Of a stretch of DNA of 64,000 nucleotides, positions 18,503-63,895 are shown in pieces (positions within the stretch are counted from its first letter, which is position 1; each line of letters opens with the position of its first letter). Under the pieces are notes generated by a model. That model saw nothing but the letters and a program-made list of their open reading frames with translations, had not been told where the DNA came from and searched no databases. The position numbers and the translations under genes are program-made. Source of the stretch: Cylindrotheca closterium (lineage: Eukaryota > Bacillariophyta > Bacillariophyceae > Bacillariales > Bacillariaceae); assembly GCA_933822405.4 (NCBI GenBank), contig CAKOGP040002147.1, positions 1-64,000 of the forward strand. Direction: 5' to 3'.

Positions 18503-20004
18503 GATGAAGGTGGAGGAATAATTCATTCAGTGACCACCACAACCATGCGAGTCACCGATCTTTGAAAGAATGAGAGAGACACGAGACACGAAGATCTCTC
18601 ACATCAGTCATCTGAGGATATCTGAAAACTGCCGTGATGAATCATCATGATGTGTGTTGGAGCGCATCATCAGTCACATCCAGATCTTTCATATCCGTCA
18701 CCTGAGGATTTCTGAAAACTATAATCATGGTGCATCATAATAATCATCACCATCATGCACGAATCATCAGCCGATGGTCAGTTATCCCTCGAATGAGTGC
18801 ATCAATAATAGGTTGCTTGCCGATTGTTGAAAAGCACTGAAGGAAGTTCACGATGATTTGCAAATGTACTGACAAAGACCTCTTTTAGAATGTGAAGAAA
18901 CGAACAAAGACTGTACTAGGTACCGTAGAAATCATACAAGTCTGGCCGGGCGGACATTGACCCAAATATCGACTGGCACAGAGGAGAAATCGATTTCTTT
19001 TAATTTTTTGTGATTCCTTTCTTGGCGAAGAAGGCAGATAGATGCCTTTGCCGTGTTTCGGGTACGAACCATCATCATCGCACGGCCGAGTTTTTGTACT
19101 GTGTTTACGCTTGCAACCACGGCGAATCAGGACGCGAGATTGTGAAGCAATTTTCTGGAAAACCTACAAAACAAAACAGGTGAGTGGAAAGAACAAGTTA
19201 GTAGAGGTTAGAACACTGGTGATAGCATCTAAAGATAGAGTAGGGGATACAGGAGGGGGTAAAAGCAGCCTATATGTTCGATCGCTCGTAATTTAAACAG
19301 TGAAACCTGTATAATACATACATTACTCGTACCGGTTCACGTGGACAATCGAAAGCAGTCCACCCCAAGACCCGATCGGCTACCCGTACCAGGGTACCAC
19401 TGTGCGCAGCGGATTTATAGAAAGTGCTGGAAAGCACGATAACGGTACTACTGTACAACACGATGATGGCAACGCTTTCTCATACACGTGTACTGTAGGG
19501 GTCCCAAACCGGGCCGGCAATACCTCCGCGAATTTCTTTTATCCATTTGTGGCTAAGTATTTTAATAAATGCATTTGCTCGATAATTGGCAAAACGAACG
19601 CTGGTGTTTGGCGGAATCAATCTTCTCGCGAACTTATTCGTGTAAAAGAGGTACGACCTGGTACGAAACGCTTATTAGGAGTGATGCAAATCTCAGAGCC
19701 GGCCCCTACCGGTACCTGGTACCAGGGTACCCCCGACTGGTAAAATGAGTGCAGGCAATGGTGATGCCAGAGAATGACTGCCCTTGTTTTACTTTGTAAG
19801 GTCAGAAACACCATTTCGGCTAAACTTTCGGATAGAGGAATAAAACAGTCACAAACTATTAAATGTTTTCGTAGTTTCCAGTCATTGAATAGTACCGCCC
19901 ACAATCCAGCAACCAATATGTCTCCCATTCGAAGAATTTGATTTTGACACCTTTTGATACGACCCGTCCTCTGAACCCTCACAAAACAATAATCTCTGCG
20001 TAAT
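18503..20004. other. Gene-poor region ahead of the receptor array
   Basis: Contains no intact gene. At 18600-18720 two diverged copies of a short unit (CACATCAGTCATCTGAGGAT and CATATCCGTCACCTGAGGAT) lie about 85 bases apart. At 18934-19175 lies a decayed fragment of the receptor family (separate entry). The stretch 19300-19740 has several GGTACC/TACCGG palindromes and two direct copies of TACCAGGGTACC (near 19387 and 19722). Confidence 0.5.
18934..19175 (+). pseudogene. Decayed 3' fragment of a cyclase-phosphodiesterase gene
   Basis: Reads as the end of the phosphodiesterase domain of the five intact downstream genes. TACAAGTCTGGCCGGGCGGA at 18935-18954 is identical to the D copy over 20 bases. 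It continues through recognisable versions of the DPSINWYKGEIGFFDFYVIPLAKK coding stretch to GTGAAGCAATTTTCTGGAAAA near 19143-19163, matching the last codons of copy B. It has an in-frame TAA where the others encode FFDF, plus small indels, so it is non-functional. Upstream exons are missing. It is about 830 bases before the first intact copy and in the same orientation. Confidence 0.8.
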
Positions 20005-23000
20005 ATGAAGGATCAGTACGCATCAGAAGACAACAGTAGAAGCGGCCAATCCCATGGCAACTCCACGTATGTTTCAGAATCAGGTTTCAATTCTTCTTCG
20101 GATGAGTTCAACCTCAAAAGAAAGGCCGATTCACCCACTAGGAACCTTGATTATGTTGCAATGCGAGAACACAAGGCTGTAAATCGATCAAAACTCTTGG
20201 TGGCATTGTTCCTGTTCCTTGCGGCCTGTGCAACCGCCGCTGCAACCTACCTGTTTGTCGAGCAGCAAGAGCGAAACGACTTTGAAGATCAGGTAAGTGA
20301 TTGATTCGTCAATCATTCGATTATCCCTTCTGCCATCTTTTCAAGCTCTCACTTTGCATGTTGTCTTTTCATTTTCAGTTCCGAAGTCAATCGCATGAAA
20401 TTGCGGCCGTGACAAAGCAGAAAACGGATCAACTTTTCAACGCCTTGAACTCATTCTCGATTAGCGTTGCGTCAGAAGCGAAAGCAACAGACCAAGCGTG
20501 GCCTTTTGTCACAATCAGTGATTGGTCGAGGAAGGCTCTGGCTTTGGGAGAGCTCATCGGTGTACCTGGAGCCACCATTGCCTTCTGTCCTGTAGTCAAG
20601 CCTGCTGACATTGGGCAATGGACATCCCATACTATGGAGGATGCTCCAAAGATTTACCAAGACGCTATTGACACTGAAGGCTTCAACATGACTATTGCTG
20701 AACTCATGACCAAGACTACTCCGTTGATTTTCCAATATGACATGGAAACCTATAGTCTCATCCCATCACAAGATACGGCCTTGCCTGTGTGGCAGAGCTA
20801 TCCATTCGCGATGGAACCAACGACACAACGCACCTACACAAATATTGATATGATGGCATTCAAACAATTCAGCGACATCTTCTTTCTGACGAATGCTACC
20901 TTAAATACTACCATCGGCTTTTCTGAGATGCTAATAGAGAAGGGTGGCGGATCATCTCTACCAATCGTTTCGAGTCAGATCATGCAACCCATATTTGACA
21001 CAACTGATACAAGAGCAGAAGACAGGGAAATGGTTGGAGGGGTCTGGTTGACGATGGAATGGACGAAGTACTTCGAGAGCTTCTTCACCGACGAAACTGA
21101 TTCAATTACACTTGTTCTCGTGAACAGTTGCCCAACTTACAATTTGAATAATGAAGAGACTTTCAGGGAAGAAGAGGTGACTGTTGTCAGCTACGAGATC
21201 AATGGACAAGAAGCTACTTATCTGGGCGAGTACGATGCACATGATCCCCAATATGACGCTCTTGAAGTGACATCCATTCTCGTGGACCTTGATATAGAAT
21301 CGTCAAGCATTCCCAGTGGTCAGTGCATCCCCAAACTTTCACTTCATCTCTACCCAACCGAACAATTCGAGGAAACTTTCCACACCGCGAAACGATTTCT
21401 ATACACTGGGGTGATCATTGCCATCTTTGTTTTCACAAGTTTTGTCTTTCTGCTGTACGACTACTTTGTTGGAAGAAGACAGGTAAGGAATTTCTTCTCA
21501 TGTACTTACTACTGTATGCTTTTGGATGCCTTTCTAATGCGAACTACTATATAAACAGAGAAAAGTCATGGATCGCATCATCATGCAAGACCAACTTGTG
21601 GCAAATGTTTTCCCCACAGCTATTCGGAATCGGCTATACGATGGCATGGGAAAATCGGGGCGACCTGGTGGAAATTTCGTTGACGGGTTTGACAACGACT
21701 GCGAGGCCGACAAAGTCACCAATGGAGCACCGATGGCAGACTTATTTCCCAACACAACCATTATTTTTGCTGACATTTCTGGTTTCACGGCGTGGTCATC
21801 TGCCCGAGAACCTCAGCAAGTCTTCACGTTGCTTGAGACTATCTATGCGACGTTTGACAGAGTGGCGTATCGACATAATGTGTTTAAAGTCGAGACGGTT
21901 GGCGACTCCTATGTTGCAGCAACTGGTGTACCAGAACCAATGAAAGAGCATGCCGGTGAGTGTAAATATTCAGTGTATCGGAAAAAAGGTCTGCTGGACG
22001 AGCTCTTGCTCCATATTTCACCACTCGCCTTTCAAACCAATTGGTAAACAATTTGTGCTCACAACTTATTTGCTGCTTTTCATGAAATATATAGTGACGG
22101 CGTGTAAATTCGCTCGCGACTGCTTGAAGAAGATGAAAGAGATTACATTGAAACTCGAAGTATCTCTTGGTCCAGATACATCGGACTTGAAACTAAGAGT
22201 TGGTATCCACAGGTAAGTCAAGAAGACTATGGGCCATTAAACAATCAAAGTGCCAAGACTTACAATACTCTTTGTACCAGTGGTCAAGTTACAGCTGGTG
22301 TATTGCGAGGTGAACGCAGCCGCTTCCAGCTATTTGGAGACACGATGAACACAGCGGCTCGTATGGAGAGTACCGGAAGGGCAAACTGCATTCAGATCAC
22401 AGCGGCCACTGCCGACTTGCTGAAGGAGGGTGGCTTTGAAAACATGATCATACCACGTGCAGAAAAGACATTCGTCAAAGGCAAGGGCGAAATGCAAACC
22501 TACTGGCTTCGTTCAACGAATTCGAAGCGCGTCAGAGCAATGGATACTGCTCATCGAATCGAATCGACGATTAGCGAAGAAGAAACGGCCGACTCCTCCT
22601 TCAGTGCTTCTGACAGGGCGGATGACCTTTTTGACATGAACGGCGTGGATAGTATGAACAAAACACAACGCCTCGTTGAATGGAATGTTGAAGTGCTCAT
22701 GTCATTGCTGCAGCAAATTGTGATCTCGAGAGGGGGATCTCGAAAGAGCATCAAACCTCTAGAGGTTGCCGAATCCAACATTCGTTCTGGACAAACCATA
22801 TTGGAGGAGTTCGTACCCATCATTCATTTGAAGAGACTAGACAATGATTCAGTTGACCCTCGGCAAAGCCCAATGAGTGAGATTGCTATTGGGGATGATG
22901 TGAAATCAGAGCTACGAAGCTTCCTCGCGAATATTGCTCAGATGTACACAGATAGCAATCCATTCCACAACTTTGAGCATGCTAGGTGAGTACGATTGGC

Positions 23001-23950
23001 ATTGGTTCGAATATGACTGTCAGCAATTTTACTTCATGACCTCACTGTATCTGCGCCTTTATATATTGTATCTTATCAGTCATGTTACGTCATCAGTGAA
23101 GAAACTACTCAAACGCATCGTGAACGTTGACCCTGAGAATGGACTCACCCAGCCGAATGCGAGCAGCGAAGTCAACATGGTCGACTTGGCCGGTCATTCC
23201 TACGGTATCACTTCCGATCCGCTGACCCAGTTTGCTGTCGTGTTTGCTGCCATCATTCATGACGTGGATCATCCAGGTGTACCAAACACCCAGTTGGTGA
23301 AGGAAGGCGCTCCGAATGCAGAGCTGTACAAGAACAAGTCTGTTGCGGAACAGAATAGCGTCGACATTGCATGGAAGATTCTGATGGAGAAAGAGTATGA
23401 ATTATTGCGAAGCTGCATCTATCAAACTGAAGGAGAGTTGTGCCGTTTCCGCCAACTGGTGGTGAATACAGTCATGGCGACTGATATTGTTGATATGGAA
23501 CTTCAGGAGCTACGCAAGGCGAGATGGGAAACGGCCTTCTCCTCGGACGTTTCCAATCTGCGAAGTGATGATGACAGCGAGGATCGAAAGGCCACTATTG
23601 TGATTGAGCACTTGATCCAAGCATCAGATGTTGTGCACACAATGCAGCATTGGCATATTTACAAAAGCTGGAACGAAAAGTTCTTTTGCGAATGCTACAA
23701 AGCCTACAAGTCTGGTCGAGCGGATGTTGATCCAAGCATCAACTGGTACAAGGGAGAAATTGGTTTCTTTGATTTCTATGTGATTCCTTTGGCGAAGAAG
23801 CTGGACGACTGTGGTGTGTTTGGGGTATCATCTCACGAGTATTTGAACTATGCTATGGCGAATCGGGACGAATGGGTGCGAGACGGTGAAGAGCTCGTGA
23901 ATCAGTTTCTGGAAAACTACAAGGCCAAGACGAGTGAGGGGGGAAAGTAA
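20005..23950 (+). CDS. Receptor nucleotide cyclase-phosphodiesterase fusion, copy A
   Basis: Six exons: 20005-20292, 20379-21482, 21559-21955, 22095-22212, 22281-22985 and 23080-23950; 1160 aa. Order of parts: polar cytosolic N-terminus, TM1 (about 63-86), sensor domain (87-435), TM2 (436-460), class III cyclase (about 525-720), helical linker, class I phosphodiesterase (about 855-1140). Cyclase metal Asps are D536 (FADISGF) and D579 (ETVGDSY); transition-state N659 and R663 are present. Purine-contact positions read E575, as in guanylyl cyclases, and Q652, where those have Cys. Phosphodiesterase metal ligands: HNFEH at 865-869, HDVDH at 931-935 and D1054 in ASDVVH. It should make and degrade a cyclic nucleotide under control of an outside signal. 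Splice sites were read directly and keep frame. Confidence 0.88.
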
Positions 23951-24197
23951 ACCATTGTATGCTATAACATTGCTTTTTAAAATATCTGAAGGGGTAGCAG
24001 AGGGAATGTATTTGATTTGTCATGAGATTCATCACAATGCTTTCGTGTTTGGCCCGCATCGTTCGCGCTGTCATATTAGCTGTAGTTCTGCATTGAACGA
24101 ATATTCAAACGAGAAAGTGCGATGGAGCAACTTTCGGTTTTAGGGAAGCTGGATATACGAGTACAGGAAGAAACATAGCTATATTCGTATTGCATAA

Positions 24198-24226
24198 TTT
24201 GATATTCCGCGAAGCGGAATATCAAA
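24198..24226. repeat. Perfect 13-bp inverted repeat, 3-base loop
   Basis: TTTGATATTCCGC, spacer GAA, then the exact reverse complement. It is one of three adjacent inverted repeats in this spacer. Confidence 0.85.
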
Positions 24227-24243
24227 GACTTGCTTGCCTACTA

Positions 24244-24280
24244 GGCCTTACAGAGACGTAGAATGCGTCGATGTAAGGCC
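24244..24280. repeat. Imperfect stem-loop: 9 bp, GA/GA, 4 bp
   Basis: GGCCTTACA...TGTAAGGCC pair perfectly. Opposed GA/GA and a further GACG/CGTC stem follow, closing a 7-base loop TAGAATG. As RNA the GA/GA step would stack as tandem sheared pairs. Confidence 0.7.
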
Positions 24281-24696
24281 CAACAGGGATGTGGAGGGAG
24301 GGAAAGAAAGAAATAAACCTTATTTCTTGACGTATACTCGCACACAAGTTCGATAAACTGATCGGACTTGGTGTTGCTGAGCAATGCTATTGTGACGGTC
24401 GTTCGACCGTCGTCAGTATGATGAAAGGAATCCAATGATTCGTTCTCGAGCTTTCGTCTACGTTAGAGTATGGCGAATGTGGAAAACGGAACACTTCGGT
24501 CCCTGCTCGGTTCTTTTATTTTAAATGTATGTAGTTTCGACTTCTGAGGAACGAGGGTCTAAAGTAAGTATTATGCAGCGCTACCAATATATGTTTGATC
24601 AGAAAGGCTTTGTTTTTGGCACTCTTTATGCCCCCATCCTCAGTCGATAAAAAAAAACGACCTCAAAATCTCTCACAAACGCAATCTCCTCGCACC

Positions 24697-27600
24697 ATGA
24701 AGCATCAGACCGCATCAGAAGATAACAGTAGAAGCGGCCAGTCCCATGGTAACATGTCGGCTACTTCAGAATCAGGTTTCAAATCCTCCTCGGATGAGTT
24801 CAACCACAAAAGAAAGGCCGATTCGCCCGCTAGGAACCTTGATCATGTTGCAATTCGAGAGCAGAAGGCTGTAAATCGATCAAAACTTTTGGTGGCATTG
24901 TTCCTGTTCCTTGCAGCCTGTGCAACTGCTGCTGTAACATATCTTTTTGTTGAGCAGCAAGAGCGAAATGACTTTGAAGATAAAGTAAGTGATTGATTCA
25001 TTCGTCAATGATTCGATTACCCCTTCTGCCAGCTGTTCAAGCTCTCACTTTGCATGTTGTCTTTTCATTTTCAGTTCCGAAGTCAATCTGATGAAATTGT
25101 GGCCGTGACAAAGCAGAAAACGGATCAACTTTTCAACGCCTTGAACTCATTCTCGATTAGCGTTGCGTCAGAAGCGAAAGCAACAGACCAAGCGTGGCCT
25201 TTTGTCACAATCAGTGATTGGTCGAGGAAGGCTCTGGCTTTGGGAGAGCTCATCGGCGTACCTGGAGCTACCATGGCCTTCTGTCCTGTAGTCAAGCCTG
25301 CTGACATTGGGCAATGGACATCCCATACTATGGAGGATGCTCCAAAGATTTACCAAGACGCTATTGACACGGAAGGCTTCAACATGACTATTGCTGAACT
25401 CATGAGCAAGACTACTCCGTTGATTTTCCAATATGACATGGAAACCTATAGTCTCGTCCCATCACAAGATACGGCCTTGCCTGTGTGGCAGAGCTATCCA
25501 TTCGCGATCGATCCAACAACACAACGCACCTACACAAATATTGATTTGATGGCATTCAAACAATTCAGCGACATCTTCTTTCTGACGAATGCTACCTTGA
25601 ATACTACAATCGGCTTTTCTGAGATACTGATAGAAGAGGGTGGCGGATCATCTCTACCAATCGTTTCGAGTCAGATCATGCAACCCATATTTGACACAAC
25701 TGATACAAGAGCAGAAGACAGGGAAATGGTTGGAGGGGTCTGGTTGACGATGGAATGGACGAAGTACTTCGAGAGCTTCTTCACCGACGAAACTGATTCA
25801 ATTACACTTGTTCTCGTGAACAGTTGCCCAACTTACAATTTGAATAATGAAGAGACTTTCAGGGAAGAAGAGGTGACTGTTGTCAGCTACGAGATCAATG
25901 GACAAGAAGCTACTTATCTGGGCGAGTACGATGCACATGATCCCCAATATGACGCTCTTGAAGTGACATCCATTCTCGTGGACCTTGATATAGAATCGTC
26001 AAGCATTCCCAGTGGTCAGTGCATCCCCAAACTTTCACTTCATCTCTACCCAACCGAACAATTCGAGGAAACTTTCCACACCGCGAAACGATTTCTATAC
26101 ACTGGGGTGATCATTGCCATCTTTGTTTTCACAAGTTTTGTCTTTCTGCTGTACGACTACTTTGTTGGAAGAAGACAGGTAAGGAATTTCTTCTCATGTA
26201 CTTACTACTGTATGCTTTTGGATGCCTTTCTAATGCGAACTACTATATAAACAGAGAAAAGTCATGGATCGCATCATCATGCAAGACCAACTTGTGGCAA
26301 ATGTTTTCCCCACAGCTATTCGGAATCGACTATACGATGGCATGGGAAAATCGGGGCGACCTGGTGGAAATTTCGTTGACGGGTTTGACAACGACTACGA
26401 GGCTGACAAAGTCACCAATGGAGCACCGATGGCAGACTTATTTCCCAACACAACCATTATTTTTACTGACATTTCTGGTTTCACGGCGTGGTCATCTGCC
26501 CGAGAACCTCAGCAAGTCTTCACGTTGCTTGAGACTATCTACGCAGCTTTTGATAGAGTGGCGTATCGACACAATGTGTTCAAAGTCGAGACGGTTGGCG
26601 ACTCCTATGTTGCAGCAACTGGTGTACCAGAACCAATGAAAGAGCATGCAGGTGAGTGTAAAAGAAAGGTCTGCTCGTCGAGCTCCTTGCTCTAGTATAC
26701 TTTAGCACTCGCCTTTCAAACCAATTGGTAAACAATTTGTGCTCACAACTTATTTGCTGCTTTTCATGGAATATAGTGACGGCATGTAAATTCGCTCGCG
26801 ACTGCTTGAAGAAGATGAAAGAGATTACATTGAAACTCGAAGTATCTCTTGGTCCAGATACATCGGACTTGGAACTAAGAATTGGTATTCATAGGTAAGT
26901 CAAGGCAAATGTACCTTCTCGCAGAACGATGATCAGACTGGCATCACTAAAAGTATCCTCTTTGTACCAGTGGTCAAGTGACGGCTGGTGTATTGCGAGG
27001 TGAACGCAGCCGCTTCCAGCTATTTGGAGACACGATGAACACAGCGGCTCGTATGGAGAGTACCGGAAGGGCAAACTGCATTCAGATCACAGCGGCCACT
27101 GCCGACTTGCTGAAGGAGGGTGGCTTTGAAAACATGATCATACCACGTGCAGAAAAGACATTCGTCAAAGGCAAGGGCGAAATGCAAACCTACTGGCTTC
27201 GTTCAACGAATTCGAAGCGCGTCAGAGCAATGGATACTGCTCATCGAATCGAATCGACGATTAGCGAAGAAGAAACGGCCGACTCCTCCTTCAGTGCTTC
27301 TGACAGGGCGGATGACCTTTTTGACATGAACGGCGTGGATAGTATGAACAAAACACAACGCCTCGTTGAATGGAATGTTGAAGTGCTCATGTCATTGCTG
27401 CAGCAAATTGTGATCTCGAGAGGGGGATCTCGAAAGAGCATCAAACCTCTAGAGGTTGCCGAATCCAACATTCGTTCTGGACAAACCATATTGGAGGAGT
27501 TCGTACCCATCATTCATTTGAAGAGACTAGACAATGATTCAGTTGACCCTCGGCAAAGCCCAAGTGCAATTCCTATTGGGGATGATGTGAAATCAGAGCT

Positions 27601-28632
27601 ACGAAGCTTCCTCACGAATATTGCTCAGATGTACACAGACGGCAATCCATTTCACAACTTTGAGCATGCTAGGTGAGTACGATTGGCATTGGTTCGAATA
27701 TGACTGTCAGCAATTTTACTTCATGACCTCACTGTTTCCCCCCCCGCTACATTGTACTGTATCTTATCAGTCACGTCACGGCATCAGTGAAGAAACTACT
27801 CAAACGGATCGTGCATGTTGAACCTGGAAATGGACTCACCCAGCCGAATGCGAGCAGCGAAGTCAACATGGTCGACTTGGCCGGTCATTCCTACGGTATC
27901 ACGTCCGATCCGCTGACCCAGTTTGCTGTCGTGTTTGCTGCCATCATTCATGACGTGGATCATCCAGGTGTACCAAACACTCAATTGGTCAGAGAAAATA
28001 CTAGGAACGCTTTGGTATACAAAAAGTCGGTTGCGGAACAGAACAGTGTAGAATTGGCTTGGGAAATGCTGATGCAAGATGAGTATCGAGAGCTGCGAGC
28101 TTGTATCTACCAGACAGAAGAGGGCTTGAAACGATTCCGCCAACTGGTGGTGAATACAGTCATGGCGACTGATATTGTTGACAAGGAACTTCAGGAGCTA
28201 CGCAAGGCGAGATGGGAAACTGCCTTCTCGGACGCTTCCAATCTGCGAAGTGATGAAGACAGCGAGGATCGAAAGGCCACCATTGTCATCGAGCACTTGA
28301 TCCAAGCATCAGATGTTGTGCACACAATGCAGCATTGGCATATTTACAAAAGCTGGAACGAGAAGTTCTTTCACGAATGCTACAAGGCCTACAAGTCTGG
28401 CCGGGCGGATGTTGACCCAAGTATCAACTGGTACACGGGAGAAATCGGTTTCTTTGACTTTTATGTGATTCCTTTGGCGAAGAAGCTGGACGACTGTGGT
28501 GTGTTTGGGGTATCATCGCACGAGTATTTGAACTATGCAACGGCGAATCGGGATGAATGGGTGCGAGACGGTGAAGAGCTCGTGAAGCAATTCCTGGAAA
28601 AGTATAAGGACAAGAGTGAGGGGGGAAAGTAA
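24697..28632 (+). CDS. Receptor nucleotide cyclase-phosphodiesterase fusion, copy B
   Basis: Six exons: 24697-24984, 25075-26178, 26255-26651, 26777-26894, 26971-27672 and 27771-28632; 1156 aa. Start chosen at the ATG matching copy A. Architecture and all intron positions equal copy A, and most of exons 2-5 and intron 2 (26179-26254) are nearly identical to it, so the duplication or conversion is recent. Cyclase Asps are kept (FTDISGF, GDSY), as are the phosphodiesterase HNFEH, HDVDH and ASDVVH motifs. One internal stretch of the phosphodiesterase (about 27986-28135) instead resembles copies D and E: RENTRNALVYKKS rather than KEGAPNAELYKNKS. The gene is therefore a mosaic. Likely an active sensor enzyme in a membrane. 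Confidence 0.87.
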
Positions 28633-29290
28633 GCCATCGAATGCTAAATATCCGAAGAGATGAAGTCCTAGAATACGAAATGTAGAGTATTATTTCTCAT
28701 AGATATATCACAATCCTTTCGTGGTATGGCACGCATCTCTTGCGTTGTCGAGTTCTATTGGAGGCGAAGATCCAACCGAGAAAATGTGCGGTAGAAGCAG
28801 AAAAGCTGGAAATCCAACAGTAATGGTTTTCCTTTATTTGGAACAGCATGGAGCATGGTAGTCTTGAACTCGAGATGGCTGAACGTCCGACAGAGATGCA
28901 CACAGTATTGTACCGGTACCTGCCTGTTGGCCTGATGGATCATGAATAGAAACAAAACTTGTCGCACATTTTTTTACGGAGGCGTTAAAGCTAGCTGTCA
29001 TAAATGTTGTTTTCATTTGATGTTTCTGTGGTCATTTTTTGAGATTGGCTGCGCAGAAATCCAACGGTGTGTAGCATCTTCAATATCAAGATGTCCTGCC
29101 CAGAAACATCAGAAGGAACTTTCCGATTTTTGACTCTTTCGTGCGAACTTTGAAATTGGCGGACTGATTGTGTGTTACATTGGACATGTATCATATATTA
29201 CCAGTTTTTTAAATCACGGCGGGACCTGTTTCGCAACCACTTTTATTACAAAAGTGCACTTTTTTTACCCGATTTGAGAAAAAAGCAACC
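28633..29290. other. Spacer between copies B and C
   Basis: The beginning is homologous to the spacer after copy A. Beyond about 28820 no similarity was noticed. It includes TACCGGTACC at 28911-28920. No gene. Confidence 0.5.
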
Positions 29291-32200
29291 ATGAACAACA
29301 ATCGGTATGCATCAGAAGATAACGGAAGCGTTGCTGAAATCAGTGCAAGCGGCCAAACCCATGGTAACATGTCGGCTACTTCAGAATCCGGCATCGAATC
29401 TACCACGGAAGAAGAAGATTACAACCAAAACAAGAAGGCTGAGGTATCCAATCAAAACCTTGATGTTGCACGGCGAGAACAAAAGGCTGTAAATCGATCC
29501 AAACTTTTGGTGGCTTTGTTCTTGTTCCTTGCAGCTTGTGCAACTGCCGCTGTAACATATCGTTTTGTTGAGCAGCAAGAGCGAAATGACTTTGAGGGTC
29601 AAGTAAGTCATTGGTAGGGAAAAGGATAAAATATTATGTCACTTCAATCTGCTAATTACATTTTCAGTTTCGAAGTCATGCAGATGAAATTGTCGTTGTG
29701 ACAAAGCAGAAAACAGATCAACTCTTTCGCGCCTTGAACTCGTTCTCGATTAGCGTTGCGTCAGAAGCGCAAGCAACAGATCAAGCGTGGCCTTTTGTTA
29801 CAATCAGTGATTGGTCGGCAAAGGCACAGTCGTTGGGAGAACTCATTGGTGTACCTGAAGCTACCATGGCTTTCTGTCCTGTAGTCAATCCTGCTAACAT
29901 TGGGCAATGGACATCCCATACTATGGAAAATGCTCCAAAGATTTATCAAGACGCAATTGACACGGAAGGTTTTAATATGACTGCAATTGAGCTCATGAGA
30001 AAGACTACCCCGTTGATTTTCCGATATGACTTGGAAACCTTGAGTATCTACCCATCAGAAGACACGGCCTTGCCAGTGTGGCAAAGCTATCCGTTTGCGA
30101 TCGAACCAACGACGCAACGCACCTTAACAAATATCGATTTGATGTCGTTCAAACAATTTAGCGACCTCTTCTTTCTGACGAATGCTACCTTAAACACTAC
30201 CATCAGCTTTTCTGAGACTTTGATAGAAGAGGGTGGTGGATCATCTCTACCTATCGTTTCGAGTCAGATCATGCAACCCATTTTCAAGAGTGCTAAATCA
30301 AAAGCAGAGGATAGGGAAATGGCCGGAGTGGTGTATTTGACGATGGAATGGACACGATACTTTGAAGACTTTTTTACCGAGGAAACCGATCCGATTACAC
30401 TTGTTCTCGTAAACAGTTGTCCAACATACAATCTGTATAATCAAGAGAGTTTCGCAGAAGAAGAAGTAAACGTTGTCAGCTACGAGATCAAAGGACCTGT
30501 GGCTACTTATCTGGGCGAGTACGATGCACATGATCCCCAATATGACGCCCTTGAAGTGACCTCCATTCTCGTGGACCTTGATATTAAATCATCAAGCATT
30601 CCCAGTGGTCAGTGCATCCCCAAACTTTCACTCCATCTCTATCCAACAGAACAATTCGAAGAAACGTTTTACACCGTCAGCCGATTCCTATACACAGGAG
30701 TGATCATTGCCATCTTTTTGTTTACTAGTTTTGTTTTTCTGCTGTATGACTACTTTGTTGGAAGAAGACAGGTAAGAAATTTCGCATTCACTACGAAATC
30801 TTCGACCAACTCTCTAATGCAAACCGATGGTTCTTCGCCTACGATGCCTACGATACAAACAGAGAAAAGTCATGGATCGCATCATAATGCAAGACCAACT
30901 TGTGGCAAATGTTTTCCCCACAGCCATTCGGAATCGGCTATATGATGGCATGGGAAAATCAGGGCGTCCCGGTGGAAATTTTGTTGACAGTTTTGATAAC
31001 GACTACGAGGCTGACAAAGTCACCGATGGAGCGCCAATGGCAGATTTATTCCCCAACACTTCGATTGTGTTTGCTGACATTGTGGGATTTACTGCTTGGT
31101 CGTCTGCTCGAGAACCACAGCAAGTCTTCGCATTGCTTGAGACCATCTATGCAGCTTTTGACAGAGTAGCTTATCGGCACAATGTTTTCAAAGTCGAGAC
31201 TGTAGGCGACTCGTATGTCGCAGCCGCGGGTTTGCCAGAACCGATGGAAGAGCATGCGGGTAAGCGTCAATGAATACTAGCATGAAGAGCTTATAGTTGT
31301 GCTCACAAAATGTCGCTTTTCATGGCACAGTGGCGGCATGCAAATTCGCTCGAGACTGCATGAGAAAGATGAAGGATATTACATTGAAACTCGAAGTATC
31401 TCTTGGTCCGGATACGTCGGACTTGGAACTAAGAGTTGGTATTCACAGGTAAGCCAAAGGCAAAGGTACCTTCTCGTTGAACGATGATTTGATTACATTG
31501 GCATCACAAAAAATAACCTAATTTTCTATCAGTGGTCAAGTGACGGCTGGTGTATTGCGAGGTGAACGCAGCCGCTTCCAGCTCTTTGGAGACACTGTGA
31601 ACACAGCGGCTCGCATGGAGAGTACCGGAAGGGCAAACTGTATACAGATCACAGAGACCACTGCTCATTTGCTGAGAGAAAGTGGTTTTGCAAACATGAT
31701 CATACCACGGGGAGAGAAGACCTTTGTCAAAGGCAAGGGGGAAATGCAAACCTACTGGCTTCGTTCAACGTTTTCGAAGAAGGCGAAAGTAAAGGGCAGT
31801 GCCTGTCAAGTCGAATCAACGATTAGCGAAGAAGAAACAACCGACGACTCCTTTAGTGTTTCCGACAGGGAGGATGACTTTCTTGACATGAACGGTGTGG
31901 AGACTATGAACAAAACCCAACGCCTCGTTGAGTGGAATGTTGAAGTGCTGAGCTCACTACTGCAGCAAATTGTGACCTCGAGAGGGGGATCTCGAAAGAG
32001 CATCAAACCTCTAGAGGTCGTCGAATCAAACATCCGTTCTGGTCAAACCATATTGGAAGAGTTCGTACCTATCATTCAACTGAAAAGGGCTGCCAATGAC
32101 TTGCAGGAGGACCGTCGCAAGAGCCCAAGTACGATTGATATTGGTAATGATGTCAAATCAGAACTACGAATTTTCCTTGCCAGAATTGCTGACCTGTATA

Positions 32201-33186
32201 CAGACAGCAATCCATTCCACAACTTTGAGCATGCTAGGTGAGTACTGTTGGCTTGACTCTAAACAAACATACTCTACATGAACTCACTTTACCTTTGCCT
32301 TCTTGTACTTTAATATACCAGTCATGTCACTGCATCAGTGAAGAAACTACTCAAACGCATCGTGAACGTTGACCCTGGAAATGGACTCACCCAGTCGAAT
32401 GCGAGCAGCGAAGTCAACATGGTCGACTTGGCCGGTCATTCCTACGGTATCACGTCCGATCCGCTGACCCAGTTTGCTGTCGTGTTTGCTGCCATCATTC
32501 ATGACGTGGATCATCCAGGTGTACCAAACACTCAGTTGGTGAAGGAAGGCGCTCCGAATGCAAAGCTGTACAAGAACAAGTCTGTTGCGGAGCAGAATAG
32601 CGTCGACATTGCTTGGAAAATTCTGATGCAGAAAGAGTATGAATCATTGCGAAGCTGCATCTATCAAACTGAAGGAGAGTTGCGACGTTTCCGCCAACTA
32701 GTGGTGAATACAGTCATGGCGACTGATATTGTCGATAAGGAACTTCAGGCGCTACGCAAGGCACGCTGGGAAACTGCCTTCTCCTCGGACGCTTCTAATC
32801 GACTAAGAGATGATGACAGCGAGAATCGAAAGGCCACCATTGTTATCGAGCACTTGATCCAAGCATCAGATGTTGTGCACACAATGCAGCATTGGCATAT
32901 TTACAAAAGCTGGAACGAAAAGTTCTTTTGCGAGTGTTACAAAGCCTACAAGTCTGGTCGGGCGGATGTTGACCCAAGCATCAACTGGTACAAAGGAGAA
33001 ATCGGTTTCTTTGATTTCTATGTGATTCCTTTGGCGAAGAAGCTGGACGACTGTGGTGTGTTTGGGGTATCATCGCACGAGTATTTGAACTATGCTATGG
33101 CAAATCGGGACGAATGGGTTCGAGACGGCGAAGAGCTTGTGAATCAGTTTTTGGAAAACAACAACCAACGTAAGGGGAAACAGTAG
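29291..33186 (+). CDS. Receptor nucleotide cyclase-phosphodiesterase fusion, copy C
   Basis: Six exons: 29291-29602, 29668-30771, 30863-31259, 31331-31448, 31533-32237 and 32322-33186; 1166 aa. Intron positions match A and B, with different intron sequences. The N-terminus is 8 residues longer than in A. The sensor domain is clearly related to A and B but carries scattered changes, for example KSAKSKAEDREMAGVVYL in place of DTTDTRAEDREMVGGVWL. The cyclase reads FADIVGF, ETVGDSY and FGDTVNTAARM, so catalytic residues are intact. The phosphodiesterase has HNFEH, HDVDH and ASDVVH, and follows copy A in the segment where B is divergent. The tail (NNNQRKGKQ) differs from A and B. Confidence 0.87.
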
Positions 33187-33587
33187 GAAGGTTGAAACTT
33201 GATTGTTTTTAATTCGTAAAGACCTGCAGCATTTGATTATTAAGATACAAGAAGAATGGCGCTAGCTATTTCATCTCTGCCAGTGCTCTAGAAAAGCAAA
33301 AATGGTTTACACAACAGATTGTACTGTAGGACTGGGCAGTCCCGCACCACTCTTTTAGTCTCACTGGCATTCATTCACGTATCAATCATTTTATGTCATT
33401 TATGGAATGTAACCAAGATGTAGCGGTTTTTCAACTTAAGGCTGATATGGTGCTTCTAAGTATTTTTCTGAAAATGCCTGCCACTGAGTTCCGAAACGGG
33501 AAAAAAGCTGCATACAGAGTACCGTACCGGTCCGGGGTAATATGCTCATCATAAACACTCGTTACCAATAGCAAGAATCAGGCAATC
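33187..33587. other. Spacer between copies C and D
   Basis: 401 bases without a gene. It contains ACCGTACCGGTCCGG near 33521-33535. No repeat of the A-B spacer was recognised. Confidence 0.45.
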
Positions 33588-36500
33588 ATGAAGGGTATGT
33601 GGGAACGCGCTGGAGATAAAGAAAGTGTTGACAGTGGAAATGGTCCATCAATGCATAGTAACGGTTCCGTTGGGAATGACAGTCATTTCATGTCAATGGA
33701 GGACGACTCAAAGGAAGCTACTTCCGCATCGTCACGCCGGTCCTTTTTGAAGAAGCAAACGTCGTCATCATCCAATTTTGGTACAAAGGAGAGTCGAGCT
33801 ATTTCGCTTTTGAAGGGTGCTGTTTTCGTTGTTGTATTGCTGGCTGTTTCCGCGGTTGCAGCGGCAACATACGTTAACATAACAATGGAAGAAAGAGACA
33901 ATTTTGAAGATGCGGTACGTGCTGTGTACTGTGGTCTTTGTATGTATTTGATTTCATATGATGTGTTCGTCTTACCACGAAAGCTCGATATTCTCCTCCT
34001 TGTCTTTTTCCAATAGTTTGGAGGGAATGCTGCACAAATCGTCAGTATTTCACGTCAGAAAGCCACACAAGTATTCAGCGCACTGGATGTTTTGTCCACG
34101 ATCATTTCCTCTGAAGCTGGTGCTTCAAATACGACTTGGCCCTTGATCTTCGTACCAGATTGGTCTATCCATGCAGAAAAACTGGGGCGTCTCATGGGAG
34201 AAAATATTGAGCTATCCTTTGCACCCATTATTCAGGAATCAGAGAGAGAATTATGGGCAAATTTCTCACAAGAAACCGCCCCAAGATGGTATCGGGAGTC
34301 GATCGAAAACGAAGTGAAAGATACAACAGTCAAAGATCTGATGACAAAGACACTACCCTACATCTTCTACTATGATTTTCGGAATGGATTTTCCCCTACC
34401 CGTGTTACTAGAAGTGGGGTTACGCTGCCGGTATGGCTTTCCTATCCCTTGATATCTGAGAACTCCATTCCTCTTATGGAGACGAATTTGGACCTACTTA
34501 CAACACCATTCGCAACCAATCTATTCAATGCCCTTAGCGCAACAAAGAGCCCGGTTGTTGGAGTGACTCAAGTACTCACAGATGCGAAGACTTCTGTCGC
34601 CGAAGGGTCCATCATGCAACCAGTGTTTGAAAGAGCTGGAGGCAAAACCGAGAATCAGACTTTGGTTGGCGTTGCATTGCTAAAGCTGAAATGGATTGAC
34701 TACTTCGAGAATTTACTGGTCGAAGGCAACAATGGTATCGTAATTGTACTTCGGAGTACCTGTCCCAATCTCGACAGCAACGGACAAGAAGAAGTGATTG
34801 GGCTGTTGTCGTATGAAGTGAACGGGCCGAACGTCACGTTTCTAGGAGAGTTTGACGCCCACGATTCCCAATATGATAATTTGGAGATATCGGAAAGACT
34901 AATTGATCTTCAAATCGACAGGACCAAACTGCCACCTGGAATATGTGTGCCGACGCTGAACCTTCAACTTTACCCGACCAAAAATCTCGAAAAGGCATTC
35001 CAAACAAACAAAGCAGCATATTTTACAACCGGAGCTGTGCTTGTCTTTGCCTTAACCAGCACTCTCTTTCTGGTATATGATTTCTTTGTGAGACGAAGGC
35101 AACGCAAAGTCATGAAAAGAATAGCAAGGCAAGAGCTCATCGTTTCAAATGTTTTCCCCACAGCCATTCGAGACCGTCTATACAACCAACAGCAAGAAAA
35201 TGGAAAGGAAGACAAAGACGACGACAGCCAGCATTCATTGGATCCATTGGGTGTTGATAAACCGGGTAGCAGGTCTGGAGCGCCAATTGCAGACCTATTT
35301 CCCAACACAACAATTGTCTTTGCTGACATTTCTGGTTTCACTGCGTGGTCATCTGCAAGAGAACCACAGCAAGTCTTCACCTTGCTCGAGACCATTTATG
35401 CAACGTTTGACAAAGTAGCCCATCGGCATGGAATTTTTAAACTTGAGACTGTAGGCGATTCGTATGTGGCAGTTGCAGGAATCCCCGAGCCCACTGACCA
35501 ACACGCGGGTGAGTAATACTGGGTTTTATTGGCATGAAAACTTTGCTTGCGAAATCCTTTTCTCAATCCTCGCACTAACAACAACTTTGAATGCTTTTGA
35601 AACGAAACAGTGATTGCAGCAAGATTTGCTCGAGATTGCATGAAGAAGATGCAAGAGACGGTGCTGAAGTTGGAAGTCACGCTGGGTCCTGACACAGCAG
35701 ACTTAGATTTGCGAGTAGGCATTCACAGGTGTGTATTGCATGTCAAATTTTATAAATTCTTCTCGAGAAACGACGACTCATTCTTCCTCTTTGTGTATTA
35801 GTGGTCAAGTCACTGCCGGTGTATTAAGAGGTGAACGAAGCCGCTTCCAGCTTTTCGGTGACACTATGAACACGGTAAGATCAAACAATGAAAATTTACT
35901 ATCCTTCCTCTACAACATACAGTATCCAACATTCTTTTCTTGCAGGCATCGCGAATGGAAAGTAGCGGACTGCCTGGTCGTATCCAGCTAACTAAGGAAA
36001 CCGCAGACTTGCTAAATGAAGGAGGACTATCCGCATGGGTAGTACCACGAAGCCAAAAGATCTTAGTAAAGGGAAAGGGGGAAATGCAAACCTATTGGAT
36101 CCGAAAGAGGAAGCTTCTGAAACTATTTCACAACAGCATGGACTTGGTGGCTCTCGACGAAACGGTGGAAACCGAAGTGGACAACGGTTATGATGATGAC
36201 GTTTTCGACCCTGATAATATCGCTGGGATGACCAAGACAGACCGTCTAGTCGAATGGAATGTGGAATTGCTTGCGTCGCTGCTGCAGCAAATCATTGCGT
36301 CAAGAGAAGGGTCTGTTGAAAAACAGCTATCGCAACGAAGTCTACTAAAGGCGGGCAACGTTGAGACTGGACGCACCGTGCTGGACGAGTTTGTGCCCAT
36401 CATTCCGTTGAAGCGATTCGATGCGGATGAGCTCAAGGCGCGACGGAGGCCCAGCTCGATTGACATAGGAGAAGAAGCGAAGTCACAGCTTCGGAGCTAT

Positions 36501-37521
36501 CTCTCCAGTATTGCTTCCATGTACAAAGATAATCCATTTCACAACTTTGAGGTGAGATTCTGCTCTGCACTTTGCTATCTCTAACGAGATGACGCTAACG
36601 TGTTTCTATTTTTACCAGCATGCTTCGCATGTTACAGCGTCTGTGAAAAAACTGCTGAAGCGCATTGTGTCAGTTGATGAAAACGGAGCATTTGGCAAAC
36701 ATGATCTACCGCCGGAAAAGAGGATGGATTTGGTCGATTTGGCGGGACACTCATATGGCATCACATCGGACCCATTGACTCAGTTTGCGGTCGTCTTCTC
36801 AGCGATTGTTCATGATGTAGACCATCCTGGTGTTCCGAATGCTCAGTTGGTGAAAGAAAGTACTAGAGATGCAAAATTCTACAAAAAGTCGGTGGCGGAA
36901 CAGAACAGCGTGGATTTGGCTTGGACAATGCTTATGCAAGAGGAGTATCATGAGCTACGCTCTTGCATCTATCAGACAGAAAACGACTTGAAACGATTCC
37001 GCCAACTGGTGGTGAATACGGTGCTGGCAACTGATATTGTTGACAAGGAACTTCAGGCGCTACGCAAGGCGAGATGGGAAACTGCCTTCTCGGGCACTTC
37101 AAACCTCGAACGGGATGTAGACAGCGAGGATCGCAAGGCCACTATTGTTATTGAGCATTTGATCCAGGCATCAGACGTAGTGCACACAATGCAGCATTGG
37201 CACATTTACAAAAGCTGGAACGAAAAGTTCTTTTGCGAGTGCTATAAAGCCTACAAGTCTGGCCGGGCGGATGTTGACCCAAGTATCAACTGGTACAAAG
37301 GAGAGATCGGCTTCTTTGACTTTTATGTGATTCCTTTGGCGAAGAAGTTGGATGACTGCGGCGTTTTTGGGGTATCATCGCACGAGTATTTGAACTATGC
37401 AACGGCGAACCGGGACGAGTGGATCCGAGACGGTGAAGAGCTTGTGCAGGATTTTGTGAGTCGTTATGAGGAAAAAGAAAACGGGACGGAAAAAGACATG
37501 AACTCATCAATGCATCGATGA
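33588..37521 (+). CDS. Receptor nucleotide cyclase-phosphodiesterase fusion, copy D
   Basis: Exons 33588-33914, 34017-35508, 35611-35728, 35802-35874, 35946-36551 and 36619-37521; 1172 aa. Same domain order as A-C, but the N-terminus (Ser-rich) and sensor domain are strongly diverged. The intron after TM2 is absent (RRRQRKVM is read through). An extra intron splits MNT|ASRM at 35875-35945. The intron ahead of the phosphodiesterase sits at FE|HASH, 8 bases upstream of its position in A-C. Cyclase residues FADISGF, ETVGDSY and FGDTMNTASRM are intact. The phosphodiesterase keeps HNFEH, HDVDH and ASDVVH, and its last 150 residues are almost the same as in A-C, which suggests conversion of that part. 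Confidence 0.86.
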
Positions 37522-38054
37522 TCCTGCAGTTGAGAGTCAAGATTGATGAACAAAGCGACCAAATGGCAACGAAGTTTGAAGTTGCACAGTTTCCACTGCT
37601 CCTAGAGAAAGTTACAGTAAAACATATTTGCCTATTTTAACCAGCAATACGCTACCAAATCCATCGTTTGCCACGACACATGTTTCGCTTTTTTTCGTCC
37701 CAGTCACCTGCAGTATCAACGTAGTATCGTTCACAGAATTAGCGCATACGTACGTGGTACACGTACACGTGGTACAAAGGAATTTTATTTGCCGGTAAGA
37801 ATTAGCGTATGTGTGACCCACAAAAGAATTTTTAACCACATGACGGAGAATGTTGAGCACTTTTTTACTATGTAGCTAGTCGTGAAGGTATATCCTCTAA
37901 TAACATATATAAAATACATATGTGACCAACAAACTCTTTTCATAGAGGCGTCGTCTGTCGTCGACCAACACTTTTCAACACCTTCATAAAAGTTTCTCCG
38001 CATGATGCATGTACCCGGCAACAACTGAAACTCAATCAAGTATCGTAATAAGAT
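37522..38054. other. Spacer between copies D and E
   Basis: No gene. At 37747-37778 the motif ACGTGGTAC occurs twice around ACGTAC, forming a nested GTAC/ACGT palindrome cluster that would sit in the promoter of copy E. The rest is AT-rich. Confidence 0.45.
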
Positions 38055-41000
38055 ATGTCCCCCCTGAGCGACGATGGCCGAAGCCTTTCAGAGTTAAGCG
38101 CTGGCGGCGCTTCACAGTTTACTTTCAGGTGGAAAAGTGAAGATGCTTCGTTGTATGACGATGCTTCAGCCGCTTTCAACGAAAGGAAGCGAGGTCAACT
38201 GCTTCCACCACAGATTGCGCACCGGGAACACAGAAATGTGATTATCTCGAGGATATTGGTTGCTCTCGTACTTATTAGTTCGATCATTGGGGCAGCATTA
38301 GGAACATTTCGATTTGTCAAGAAAGAGGAAGATGATGATTTTAGTGATGAGGTAAGTTTCATCTTCAGAATGACAATTCCTACTGTTGATCTCCAAGGAC
38401 AAGTCTGAAACAATACATTCGTACTTTTTGCTTCAGTTTTCTGTGTATTCCGAGGAAGTCTTGCTAGTCATTGCCCAAAAGATCGAACGATTATTTCTTG
38501 CATTGGATTCCTTTGCAGTCGGCATTGCTTTAGAAGCAGCCGCAACAAATAGTACCTGGCCATTTGTCACTGTCAATGATTGGCCGCTACGAGCCCAGAA
38601 AATCATGAAGCTCGTTGGTGACGACAATGCCCAATCATTTTTAGCTCCACGCGTTGAAGAGTTTGATGCACCGGATTGGGAACTGTATTCAATAGAAAAG
38701 TCGCCAATGTGGTATCAGCAGTCGGTGGACAGAGAAGCACTGTCATTTTCAGTTCAGGAATTGACGGAGAGAACCGTGAACCAAATACACTCCTACGAAG
38801 ACGACTCTACTCTCAACACCAATACAAGTGGGGCTACCTTGCCTGTTTGGCAGTACTACCCGCTTTCTCCAGATGTTGCCCAGCCAGTTCTGTCGTTGAA
38901 TACCGACAATGATGCACTGTACACAAACAACGACTTGACAACCGACCCACATATTCGCGATCTCTTCGAATTAACCAGGGCAACATCCAAGCCAAGCATT
39001 GGTGCATTCATGGTCTCCAGAGACTCTGAAATCGCAAAAAGCTTGATAGTACAGCCCATCGTAGATCCTTCCAATGAGAAAGAACTCCTTGGAGTGGTTG
39101 GCCTTTCAATGGATTGGGGCAACTACATCAAAGATATTTTACCGGAGGGAGTAAACGACCTCATACTGATCCTGCGCATAAATTGTATCAATGATGGTGT
39201 CAGCACTGAGGCTGGAGTACTGACATATAATCTGAATGGACCAAAGGCCCAATTTCTTGGTCCATACGACGGGCATGATGACGAATTTGACTACATTGAA
39301 GCGAGGAGCATTCTATTTGATCTTGATATTGCTTCATCGGCAGTGCCAGAAGCCCAATGCATTCCAGAGATTACGTTGCACTTCTTTCCAACACAAATGT
39401 ATGAAAATCGATTTCACCGTGGCAAATCTTCTGCTTACACAGGCGTGGTGGTTTCCGTCTTCATTTTCACAACTTTGGTCTTCCTGGTTTACGATTTCTT
39501 TGTTGGAAGACGACAAAAGAAAGTAATGAATCGAATCATGGCACAAGACAAGATTGTTGCTGATGTGTTTCCAACAGCCGTCCGCGATCGTTTGTATAAC
39601 GACAACGATGACCTCGAAGAGCCAGACGCAACACAAGACCTTCCCAGGTCGTCTTCACTTACAGCTCTTGACGATGAACTTGACGTTTTCGGTGCTCCTC
39701 CTTTGGCAGATTTGTTCCCAAACACGACCGTTATCTTTGCTGACATTGTAGGTTTTACCGCTTGGTCATCAGCTCGTGAGCCGCAACAAGTGTTCAGATT
39801 ACTCGAATCTCTGTACATGGCCTTTGACAAGATTGCATACCGTCATGGAGTGTTCAAGATTGAAACCGTTGGGGTAAGAAATCCAGCTGAGTCAGTACTT
39901 TGTAAAGATCCCAGCGAACTCATTACACTATGTTTGTACTCTTAAGGACTGCTATGTGGCCGTGGCCGGATTACCAGAACCGAATGAGAGACATGCTGGT
40001 AGGTATCCCAAAATGTGATGATCAACAATGTGCTCGTTGACCTACATGCTCCATCTTTGATCGATTACCTTGTATGAATCAAATTTGTACTTACGTGTTG
40101 TTGCTATTTTTTTGTCTTGAACAGTCTGCGTTGCTCGCTTCGCCCGTGACATAGTTTGGAAAATGAAAGAGATAACCCAACGATTGGAAGTGTTATTAGG
40201 ACCAGAAACATCAGAGCTGGACCTTCGAGTTGGAATTCACAGGTAAGACGTTGCAGGGCGACTTATGTTGACGACATCGAATGTCCGCTCAGCAATTTAC
40301 CGGTCGTGCCACAGCGGCCAAGTTACAGCAGGAGTACTTCGGGGAGACAGAAGCCGTTTTCAGCTCTTTGGTGACACAATGAATACTGCTGCAAGAATGG
40401 AACATACAGGAGAGGCGAATTGCATTCAAATATCCCAGGCCACTGCAGATCTACTAAAAGAGCATGGTTACAGTGCCTTGATCGAGCAGCGTGGAACTAC
40501 GATCTTTGCCAAAGGCAAGGGCGAGATGCAAACGTACTGGTTAAGTATCCGGAAAGGAAAGTCTCGAAAAGGGAATGATCGACTTCTCGCTTCTGTCTCG
40601 GAACTTGATGAACAGTCTGTTACTTCTGGTGCAAGTGATACTCCATCAGAGGATGGCTCGATTGCGGAATACATTCCACGCGGAATGTCGAAAATAGAGC
40701 GTCTCGTTGAATGGCATGTCGAAGTTTTAGCTTCTCTGTTGCAACAAATCATTGCATCCAGATTTGACGTGATTGAACCATCGGAGTCTTTACGGAACGC
40801 TGAAGCATCAATCTCCGCAGGTCATGATGTTCTAGACGAGGTTGCCACAATCATCAACTTCAAAAGGTTCGATGCAAAGCACTTGAGGCAGCGGCCAAGC
40901 CCAGCAGATATCGACGTTGGAGAAAAAGCAAAGAATGAACTTCGAAACTATGTCGCCCATATTGCCGAGATGTACAACGATAATCCATTCCACAATTTTG

Positions 41001-41962
41001 AGCATGCAAGTCACGTAACTGCGTCTGTAACTAAGCTGCTGCGACGAATTGTAAATGTTGACGAAGGGAAGGTATTTGGAGGCGTTAAGGATACATCTGC
41101 CGAGCAAATTGATCTCGTTGACTTGGCCGGACACTCTTATGGCATCACATCTGATCCATTGACACAATTTGCTGTTGTATTTTCTGCAATCATCCACGAC
41201 GTCGATCACCCTGGTGTGCCAAACTCGCAGCTCTTGGTGGAAAATACAAGGAACGCGAAGGTCTATAAGAAGTCTATCGCCGAGCAGAATAGTGTGGATC
41301 TAGCATGGAGTATGTTGATGCAGGATGAATTCAAGAATCTGCGATCTTGCATCTATCAGAATGAAGAGGGTCTCAAGCGATTCCGTCAATTAGTAGTCAA
41401 CTCTGTTATGGCAACAGATATTGTAGACAAAGAGCTCCAGGCGCTTCGCAGGGGTCGATGGGATACTGCCTTTTCCAATGATCCAATACCAGAGGATGAA
41501 ATCAAGGACGATCGAAAGGCGACAATTGTGATTGAGCATTTGATCCAAGCATCGGACGTAGCACATACGATGCAGCATTGGCACATCTACAAGGCATGGT
41601 GAGTAAAAGATCCTACCTATAGTTTCCGCTCGTGCTTTACTGCACGAAATCTCATATGACACCCTTCATTACTTCTTAGGAACGAAAAGTTCTTCATGGA
41701 GTGTTATGGGGCTTATAAGATGAATCGTGCGACTGTGGATCCAAGTGTGAATTGGTACCGCGGGGAAATCGGATTCTTTGACTTTTATGTTATTCCTTTG
41801 GCAATGAAGTTGCAAGAGTGCGGTGTCTTTGGTGTTGCTTCCCATGAGTACTTAAACTACGCCATGTCAAATCGAGAGGAATGGGTCCGTGAAGGGGAAG
41901 CAATTGTAAAGTCCTTCATTGTGAAATACGATAGAATGTATGGTGAAAGTGCTAGTGCTTAG
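38055..41962 (+). CDS. Receptor nucleotide cyclase-phosphodiesterase fusion, copy E
   Basis: Exons 38055-38351, 38437-39873, 39947-39998, 40125-40242, 40315-41598 and 41680-41962; 1156 aa. It is the most divergent copy. It lacks both the intron after TM2 and the one at HAS|HVT. It has private introns at TVG|DCY (39874-39946) and inside the Trp codon of KAW|NEK (41599-41679). The cyclase reads FADIVGF, ETVGDCY and FGDTMNTAARM, so metal Asps and transition-state residues remain. The phosphodiesterase keeps HNFEH, HDVDH and ASDVAH. The sensor domain shares only scattered residues with A-C, such as TWPFVTVNDW near its start. The stop codon is only 65 bases from that of the convergent channel gene. 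Confidence 0.86.
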
Positions 41963-63885: not shown

Positions 63886-63895
63886 NNNNNNNNNN
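63886..63895. other. Assembly gap (10 N)
   Basis: Ten undetermined bases. The 105 bases after it (63896-64000) are the same as 63759-63863 before it. Confidence 0.95.

Follow-up and report, generated by a model that had tools for sequence, protein, structure and literature searches.

Five tandem receptor-type guanylyl cyclase/phosphodiesterase genes in Cylindrotheca closterium, with a predicted CHASE-like sensor and a Gln-to-Glu change in the phosphodiesterase

Five complete genes, arranged head to tail on one strand, fill positions 20005-41962 of a 64,000-nucleotide stretch of the genome of the marine pennate diatom Cylindrotheca closterium (the window, which is part of contig C535 of 213,221 bases in a genome of 47.6 Mb). 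Each encodes a putative membrane receptor of 1156-1172 amino acids (aa) in which a guanylyl cyclase (GC) and a phosphodiesterase (PDE) are joined in one chain. Judged by sequence, the five genes, G1 to G5, are further members of the known diatom family of receptor-type GC/PDEs; what is new here, as far as the literature searched goes, is the predicted fold of the sensor and a Gln-to-Glu change in the PDE. Our explanation, to which we give a probability of about two-thirds, is that these GC/PDE family members carry a CHASE-like sensor and produce a pulse of cyclic GMP (cGMP) that would be capped by a low-affinity PDE on the same chain, and that the set arose by duplication and gene conversion.

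The gene models have six exons each, with joins chosen at GT-AG sites that preserve the frame and the peptide common to the copies, and none of the five contains an internal stop. Since the only run of N in the window starts at 63886, the array is without a gap. The domain order is the same throughout: an N-terminal tail, a membrane helix, an outer domain of ~340 aa, a second membrane helix, a class III cyclase and a class I PDE. A hydropathy scan placed two strong membrane segments around the outer domain in all five proteins, with one further weak segment inside it in both G1 and G5 (score 1.65; threshold 1.6). Pfam, scanned for G1, G4 and G5, gave Guanylate_cyc at E 5e-48 to 5e-49 and PDEase_I at E 6e-26 to 4e-31. 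The G1 and G3 proteins are letter for letter the public C. closterium proteins P0019 and P0040, and G4 matches P0001, also from this species, at 99.9% identity across 1152 aa. G1-G3 have an intron between the second helix and the cyclase that G4 and G5 are without; G4 has an extra intron within the cyclase, and in G5 one intron falls within the cyclase and another late in the PDE. An earlier inspection of the letters alone (the sequence-only reading) had proposed five complete same-strand cyclase-PDE receptor genes with a sensor bounded by two helices, and had described the metal ligands of all five cyclases and PDEs as intact. Gene models, hydropathy, Pfam and active-site residues confirm both points, with the qualification that the purine-contacting residue of the PDE is Glu, not Gln. 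The features are:

20005..23950, plus strand: G1, receptor guanylyl cyclase/PDE, 1160 aa; exons 20005-20292, 20379-21482, 21559-21955, 22095-22212, 22281-22985, 23080-23950 (gene model, Pfam, identical to public P0019)
20379..21482, plus strand: G1 sensor exon, predicted CHASE-like outer domain and second membrane helix; the copy that was folded (AlphaFold2 pLDDT 92.9; AHK4 and PcrK best matches)
23080..23950, plus strand: G1 PDE exon; metal-binding residues complete, invariant Gln replaced by Glu; residues ~942-997 match G3, not G2
24697..28632, plus strand: G2, architecture as G1, 1156 aa; exons 24697-24984, 25075-26178, 26255-26651, 26777-26894, 26971-27672, 27771-28632 (gene model and active-site residues)
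25075..26178, plus strand: G2 sensor exon, 97% identical to the G1 sensor
29291..33186, plus strand: G3, architecture as G1, 1166 aa; exons 29291-29602, 29668-30771, 30863-31259, 31331-31448, 31533-32237, 32322-33186 (gene model; identical to P0040, which has both Pfam domains)
29668..30771, plus strand: G3 sensor exon, 84% identical to the G1 sensor
33588..37521, plus strand: G4, architecture as G1, 1172 aa; exons 33588-33914, 34017-35508, 35611-35728, 35802-35874, 35946-36551, 36619-37521 (gene model, Pfam, P0001 match)
34017..35102, plus strand: G4 sensor region, 36% identical to the G1 sensor
38055..41962, plus strand: G5, architecture as G1, 1156 aa; exons 38055-38351, 38437-39873, 39947-39998, 40125-40242, 40315-41598, 41680-41962 (gene model, Pfam)
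38437..39516, plus strand: G5 sensor region, 38% identical to the G1 sensor
18932..19153, plus strand: broken remnant of a PDE C-terminus, carrying a stop in frame and lying immediately before the array (40% identity by tblastn, E 4e-10)

The structure of the G1 sensor, the one of the five covered by structure prediction, was modelled with AlphaFold2 (pLDDT 92.9). Its best structural matches were the cytokinin receptors AHK4 and PcrK, and in the model the G1 sensor has a CHASE-like fold. AHK4 (plant) and PcrK (Xanthomonas) have in common with G1-G5 a predicted outer-domain fold between two membrane helices, whereas sequence identity is only ~10% and their output is a histidine kinase rather than a cyclase and a PDE; Pfam found no histidine kinase in G1, G4 and G5, only cyclase and PDE. 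Among the other fold neighbours are, by entry title, chemoreceptors for small molecules such as amino acids and polyamines. A CHASE-like fold points to small-molecule ligands and offers a route to screening for them. An hhalign comparison joined the sensor to the Seminavis protein P0152 (99.9%, E 8.5e-38, 334 columns), and three of five paralogous sensor pieces reached the Pfam CHASE (PF03924) cut-off. Compared with all three of G1-G3 in the divergence analysis, the G4 and G5 sensors are 35-36% identical to theirs, and 34% identical to each other.

The class III cyclase residues (two metal Asp, Asn, Arg and Lys) are present in all of G1-G5. Their conservation was counted in 125 rows, comprising G1-G5 and 120 listed relatives of G4 (a set that itself contains G1 and G3). 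The first metal Asp is kept in 124 (1 gap) and the second in 121 (3 gaps, 1 Asn); 124 rows have the Asn, 123 the Arg and all 125 the Lys. The first base-selecting residue is Glu in 122 rows (2 gaps, 1 His), as in natriuretic peptide receptor 1, a membrane receptor that also has a class III cyclase; the diatom proteins differ from it in having a second helix, an added PDE and Gln at the second base-selecting site. The outer domain of animal receptor guanylyl cyclases also differs from the diatom type. The G1-G5 receptors probably both make and destroy cGMP. A separate GC/PDE lineage, found at C112:499500-504000 (L027/L036) and among proteins P0121-P0161, has often lost the cyclase active site and kept the PDE metal residues: the second metal Asp is present in 29, the Asn in 12 and the Arg in 11 of the 41 proteins, and the PDE metal residues in 40 or 41. 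This lineage probably consists of receptors whose cyclase is inactive and whose PDE still works, although the set of 41 also takes in members with intact cyclase sites, such as Seminavis P0152.

The PDE of G1-G5 shares the catalytic His and the metal-binding His, His, Asp and Asp with class I PDEs such as PDE4 and PDE9. Across the same 125 rows the catalytic His, both metal His and the first metal Asp are invariant, and the last metal Asp is kept in 121 (4 gaps). In the alignment to PDE4, however, diatom GEIGFFDF lies over SQVGFIDY, which puts Glu at the position of the invariant purine-binding Gln in G1-G5 and in 119 of the 125 rows (6 gaps). A Tyr of the diatom motif aligns with the PDE4 Tyr that partners this Gln in PDE4, and lies at the place of a different partner, Glu, in PDE9. 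In a wider set of 277 proteins, 278 alignments reached the site, with 264 Glu, 13 Gln and 1 Pro (in a ragged stretch). All ten PDEs reaching the site at C535 (outside the window), C112 and C1 have Glu (no cyclase is among the matches listed for the C1 locus), as does Seminavis P0152. Standalone PDEs of the C. closterium genome (C340, C4) have Gln. Three same-strand cyclase-PDE-PDE loci (C190, L023; C556, L025; C101, L026) have Gln in the first PDE and Glu in the second, and a fourth (C330, L024) has Gln in both. Two PDE matches also occur in the relative P0165, whose transcriptome label begins 'Tiarin'; we take this to be a ciliate genus, in which case the record may be prey or carry-over from a diatom.

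The corresponding change was made in human PDE9 by Hou and colleagues: Q453E raised the KM for cGMP from 0.113 to 2.8 µM (25-fold weaker), and the enzyme was still active with kcat halved (PMC3069055). Replacement of the Gln that grips the purine thus leads us to infer a low-affinity PDE, relevant mainly at high local cGMP, and the analogy suggests that the diatom PDE may be a built-in brake. In the mechanism we propose, a small molecule from outside would bind to the CHASE-like domain of a dimeric receptor, the membrane helices would transmit the ligand-induced change, the paired cyclase domains would make cGMP, and the PDE on the same chain would hydrolyse it. Being of low affinity, the PDE would cap and end the cGMP pulse rather than cancel a resting signal. 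If this is true, the Glu change provides a measurable reason why a cyclase-PDE fusion need not be a futile cycle. The literature searched gave no sensor fold for diatom GC/PDEs and, beyond tight regulation, no reason for fusing the opposed enzymes.

Divergence along the array is uneven. At the DNA level, G1 and G2 share 97-99% identity over four domains, falling to 94% in the PDE end and to 84-88% in the N-terminus and first PDE half. For the pair G1-G2, synonymous divergence (dS) is 0.04 in the sensor but rises to 0.49 in the first half of the PDE; the pair G1-G3 shows 0.48 and 0.12 in the same two regions. At 480 sites G1 agrees with just one of G2 and G3; before residue 861 the agreement is with G2 at 348 and with G3 at 24, and after it with G2 at 36 and G3 at 72, a distribution reached in 0 of 2000 shuffles. 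In a PDE tree, G1 groups with G3 (support 100/99). Against G1-G3, DNA windows of G4 that start at residues 1034-1094 show 88-95% identity, and the dS of G4 to G1-G3 is 0.56-0.79 in the PDE end and 1.2 to saturated in every other domain. Gene conversion has mixed the PDE ends, while the sensors stayed apart; in the proposed mechanism, duplication would supply new sensors and conversion would keep the PDE ends alike. Relatives found elsewhere are 75-76% identical to G1-G3 (P0022) and 74% (P0003) and 80% (P0002) identical to G4, so these two lineages are old. G5 has no relative closer than ~52% among the 277 proteins. Among the sensors of G1-G3 the ratio of non-synonymous to synonymous divergence (dN/dS) is ~0.2, and comparisons involving G4 or G5 reach or approach saturation; the description of the set as diversifying, if taken to mean positive selection, is therefore unsupported.

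That the copies are dead genes or assembly duplicates, the latter named in the sequence-only reading as a refuting outcome, is very improbable. This alternative draws on the 97-99% similarity of G1 and G2 in four domains and on the broken PDE remnant at 18932-19153, but G1 and G2 are not assembly copies, given the 84-88% identity in the N-terminus and first PDE half, and the mosaic divergence, intact frames and lack of gaps argue the same way, as do separate transcribed relatives of G1-G3 (P0022) and G4 (P0003), both of which are transcriptome records (labelled mmetsp). Other observations weigh against parts of our explanation itself. Pfam CHASE (PF03924) had no match in G1, G4 and G5 at E up to 1, the precomputed CHASE label was on none of the 120 listed G4 relatives and none of the 41 proteins P0121-P0161, and a profile of six of these sensors, run against the PDB to an E of 10, retrieved no CHASE chain. 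Because of these negatives, CHASE membership rests on the fold and on intermediates. The second base-selecting residue is Gln in all 125 rows, not the Cys of animal guanylyl cyclases such as natriuretic peptide receptor 1, so a preference for GTP is not certain. The PDE9 mutant lost much of its preference for cGMP over cAMP, from 337 to 29, and its residue surroundings differ from those of the diatom PDE: the partner of the PDE9 Gln is a Glu, and the mutant pair may repel (PMC3069055).

These substrate points leave some room for cyclic AMP (cAMP), alone or together with cGMP, as the messenger. The best PDB sequence matches lean the same way, being PDE4 for the PDE half and, for the G1 cyclase by overall score, adenylyl cyclases 8 and 5, with natriuretic peptide receptor 1 close behind, so that cGMP as the messenger is inferred from one residue and from the name used in the literature. 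That residue, however, is the Glu of guanylyl cyclases at the first selecting site, and overall similarity does not fix the substrate; we regard a cAMP role as improbable. It is less probable still that the PDE half does not hydrolyse and acts as a cGMP-binding regulatory domain: the purine-binding Gln is indeed replaced in 264 of 278 alignments, yet nearly every row retains the metal and acid residues and the corresponding PDE9 mutant is active (PMC3069055). A cGMP-producing receptor with a working, low-affinity PDE is the preferred reading, and the alternatives for its signal can be set against what is reported for other diatoms. The link of such fusions in pennate diatoms to pheromones, also drawn in the sequence-only reading, is in print (PMC4726125, PMC8027222). 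A two-helix GC/PDE of Seminavis robusta is induced by pheromone (Moeys 2016, PMC4726125), whose authors knew of GC and PDE on one protein only in diatoms, and Bilcke 2020 reported 17 differentially expressed GC genes, including 8 GC/PDEs, all 8 up (PMC8027222). A GC/PDE homologue of P. multistriata is regulated 1.9-fold (PMC5485032). C. closterium itself mates by pheromones, of which its mt- cells release three, one of them for attraction (PMC8217010). The Seminavis proteins share with G1-G5 the two-helix topology, cyclase before PDE, and a multigene, tandem-enriched family, but they are other copies in another species, and it is for them that induction is known; the Seminavis protein P0152 shares the sensor (334 columns) and the PDE Glu with G1-G5.

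That the five are specifically the sex-pheromone receptors of C. closterium is, on this evidence, doubtful. Induction is not binding, and known pheromones are far fewer than the members of the family. In S. robusta, cyclases are among the tandem duplicates and the cGMP family is the most broadly responsive, answering many conditions (PMC7335047). A four-species paper on conserved sex genes with C. closterium data has no cyclase, phosphodiesterase or cGMP in its main text by word search (PMC12618581; its C. closterium proteins are drawn from Audoor 2024, 10.1111/mec.17320). A better contender, though still short of even odds, is that the five sense bacterial exudates, nutrients or stress and not mates. 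Seven S. robusta GC genes, two of them with PDE, are higher with Maribacter exudate plus pheromone than with pheromone alone, and the same seven do not rise with Roseovarius (PMC6688387); the small-molecule chemoreceptors among the fold neighbours would also fit. Since the S. robusta cGMP family answers many conditions, and some members bacterial exudates (PMC7335047, PMC6688387), pheromone sensing is only one candidate for our receptors. As to precedence, neither CHASE nor glutamine occurs in the main text of PMC4726125, the word CHASE has no match in the text of PMC7335047, PMC6688387 and PMC8027222, and no description of a CHASE fold or Glu change in diatom GC/PDEs was found in the literature searched (titles, abstract starts and passages). 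Full novelty of the CHASE finding is nevertheless opposed by a statement in a 2020 review that homologues of cytokinin receptors with varied outputs are known from diatoms, among others (PMC7700396), and by automated Pfam labels of CHASE, cyclase and PDE together on 7 of 120 proteins of a separate listing, including one Seminavis and one Epithemia protein.

The array is part of a large family. A genome search returned 170 cyclase-domain matches (best 150 listed) and 113 PDE matches; merging of neighbours gave 95 PDE loci, at least 79 of them with a same-strand cyclase within 4 kb upstream. These loci are domain matches rather than checked gene models, and some contain stops. The count was raised from 78 because G5 had been missed, its cyclase exons lying outside the best 150 of 170. 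The sequence-only reading was right about a tandem array of complete fusions, but the locus is not a special one, being a small sample of a family of at least 79 loci. On contig C535 alone there are seven more cyclase/PDE pairs: a minus-strand group of two at 76-84 kb and a plus-strand group of five at 134-158 kb. The last two of these (C535:144001-164000; L017, L018), 7.5 kb apart, are 98.1% identical over 3.9 kb, representing a recent duplication or an assembly copy. With G4 as query, a protein search scored 7990 candidates and recovered 1683 relatives, and 94 of the best 120 of the 1683 carry a C. fusiformis label; the family is larger still in that species than in C. closterium.

Diatom perception of mates, bacteria and nutrients is largely open, and GC/PDE receptors are a leading candidate class. 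One could speculate, although we would sooner doubt than accept the whole of it, that pennate diatoms have a very large class of CHASE-type receptors, each a single-chain cGMP pulse generator with a PDE detuned by the Gln-to-Glu change, so that synthesis would be unchecked while cGMP is low and held back once it is high, and in which arrays renew the sensors and conversion keeps the PDE uniform, a logic comparable to that of animal odorant receptor families. With published mating assays and mating RNA-seq, C. closterium is a practical system in which to test the sensor and Glu ideas.

Elsewhere in the window, the plus strand has an open frame at 5033-6895 with a sub-threshold match to the von Willebrand type D domain (E 6e-4), a domain tied to diatom adhesion (PMC7335047). 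On the minus strand at 49737-59797 there are three tandem copies ~2.8 kb apart with weak matches to choline transporters, one scoring 35.3 bits (cut-off 26.9) and the others 26.8 and 20.0, below the cut-off. The third of these choline-transporter-like open reading frames (56210-59797) contains short repeats at 58196-59374.

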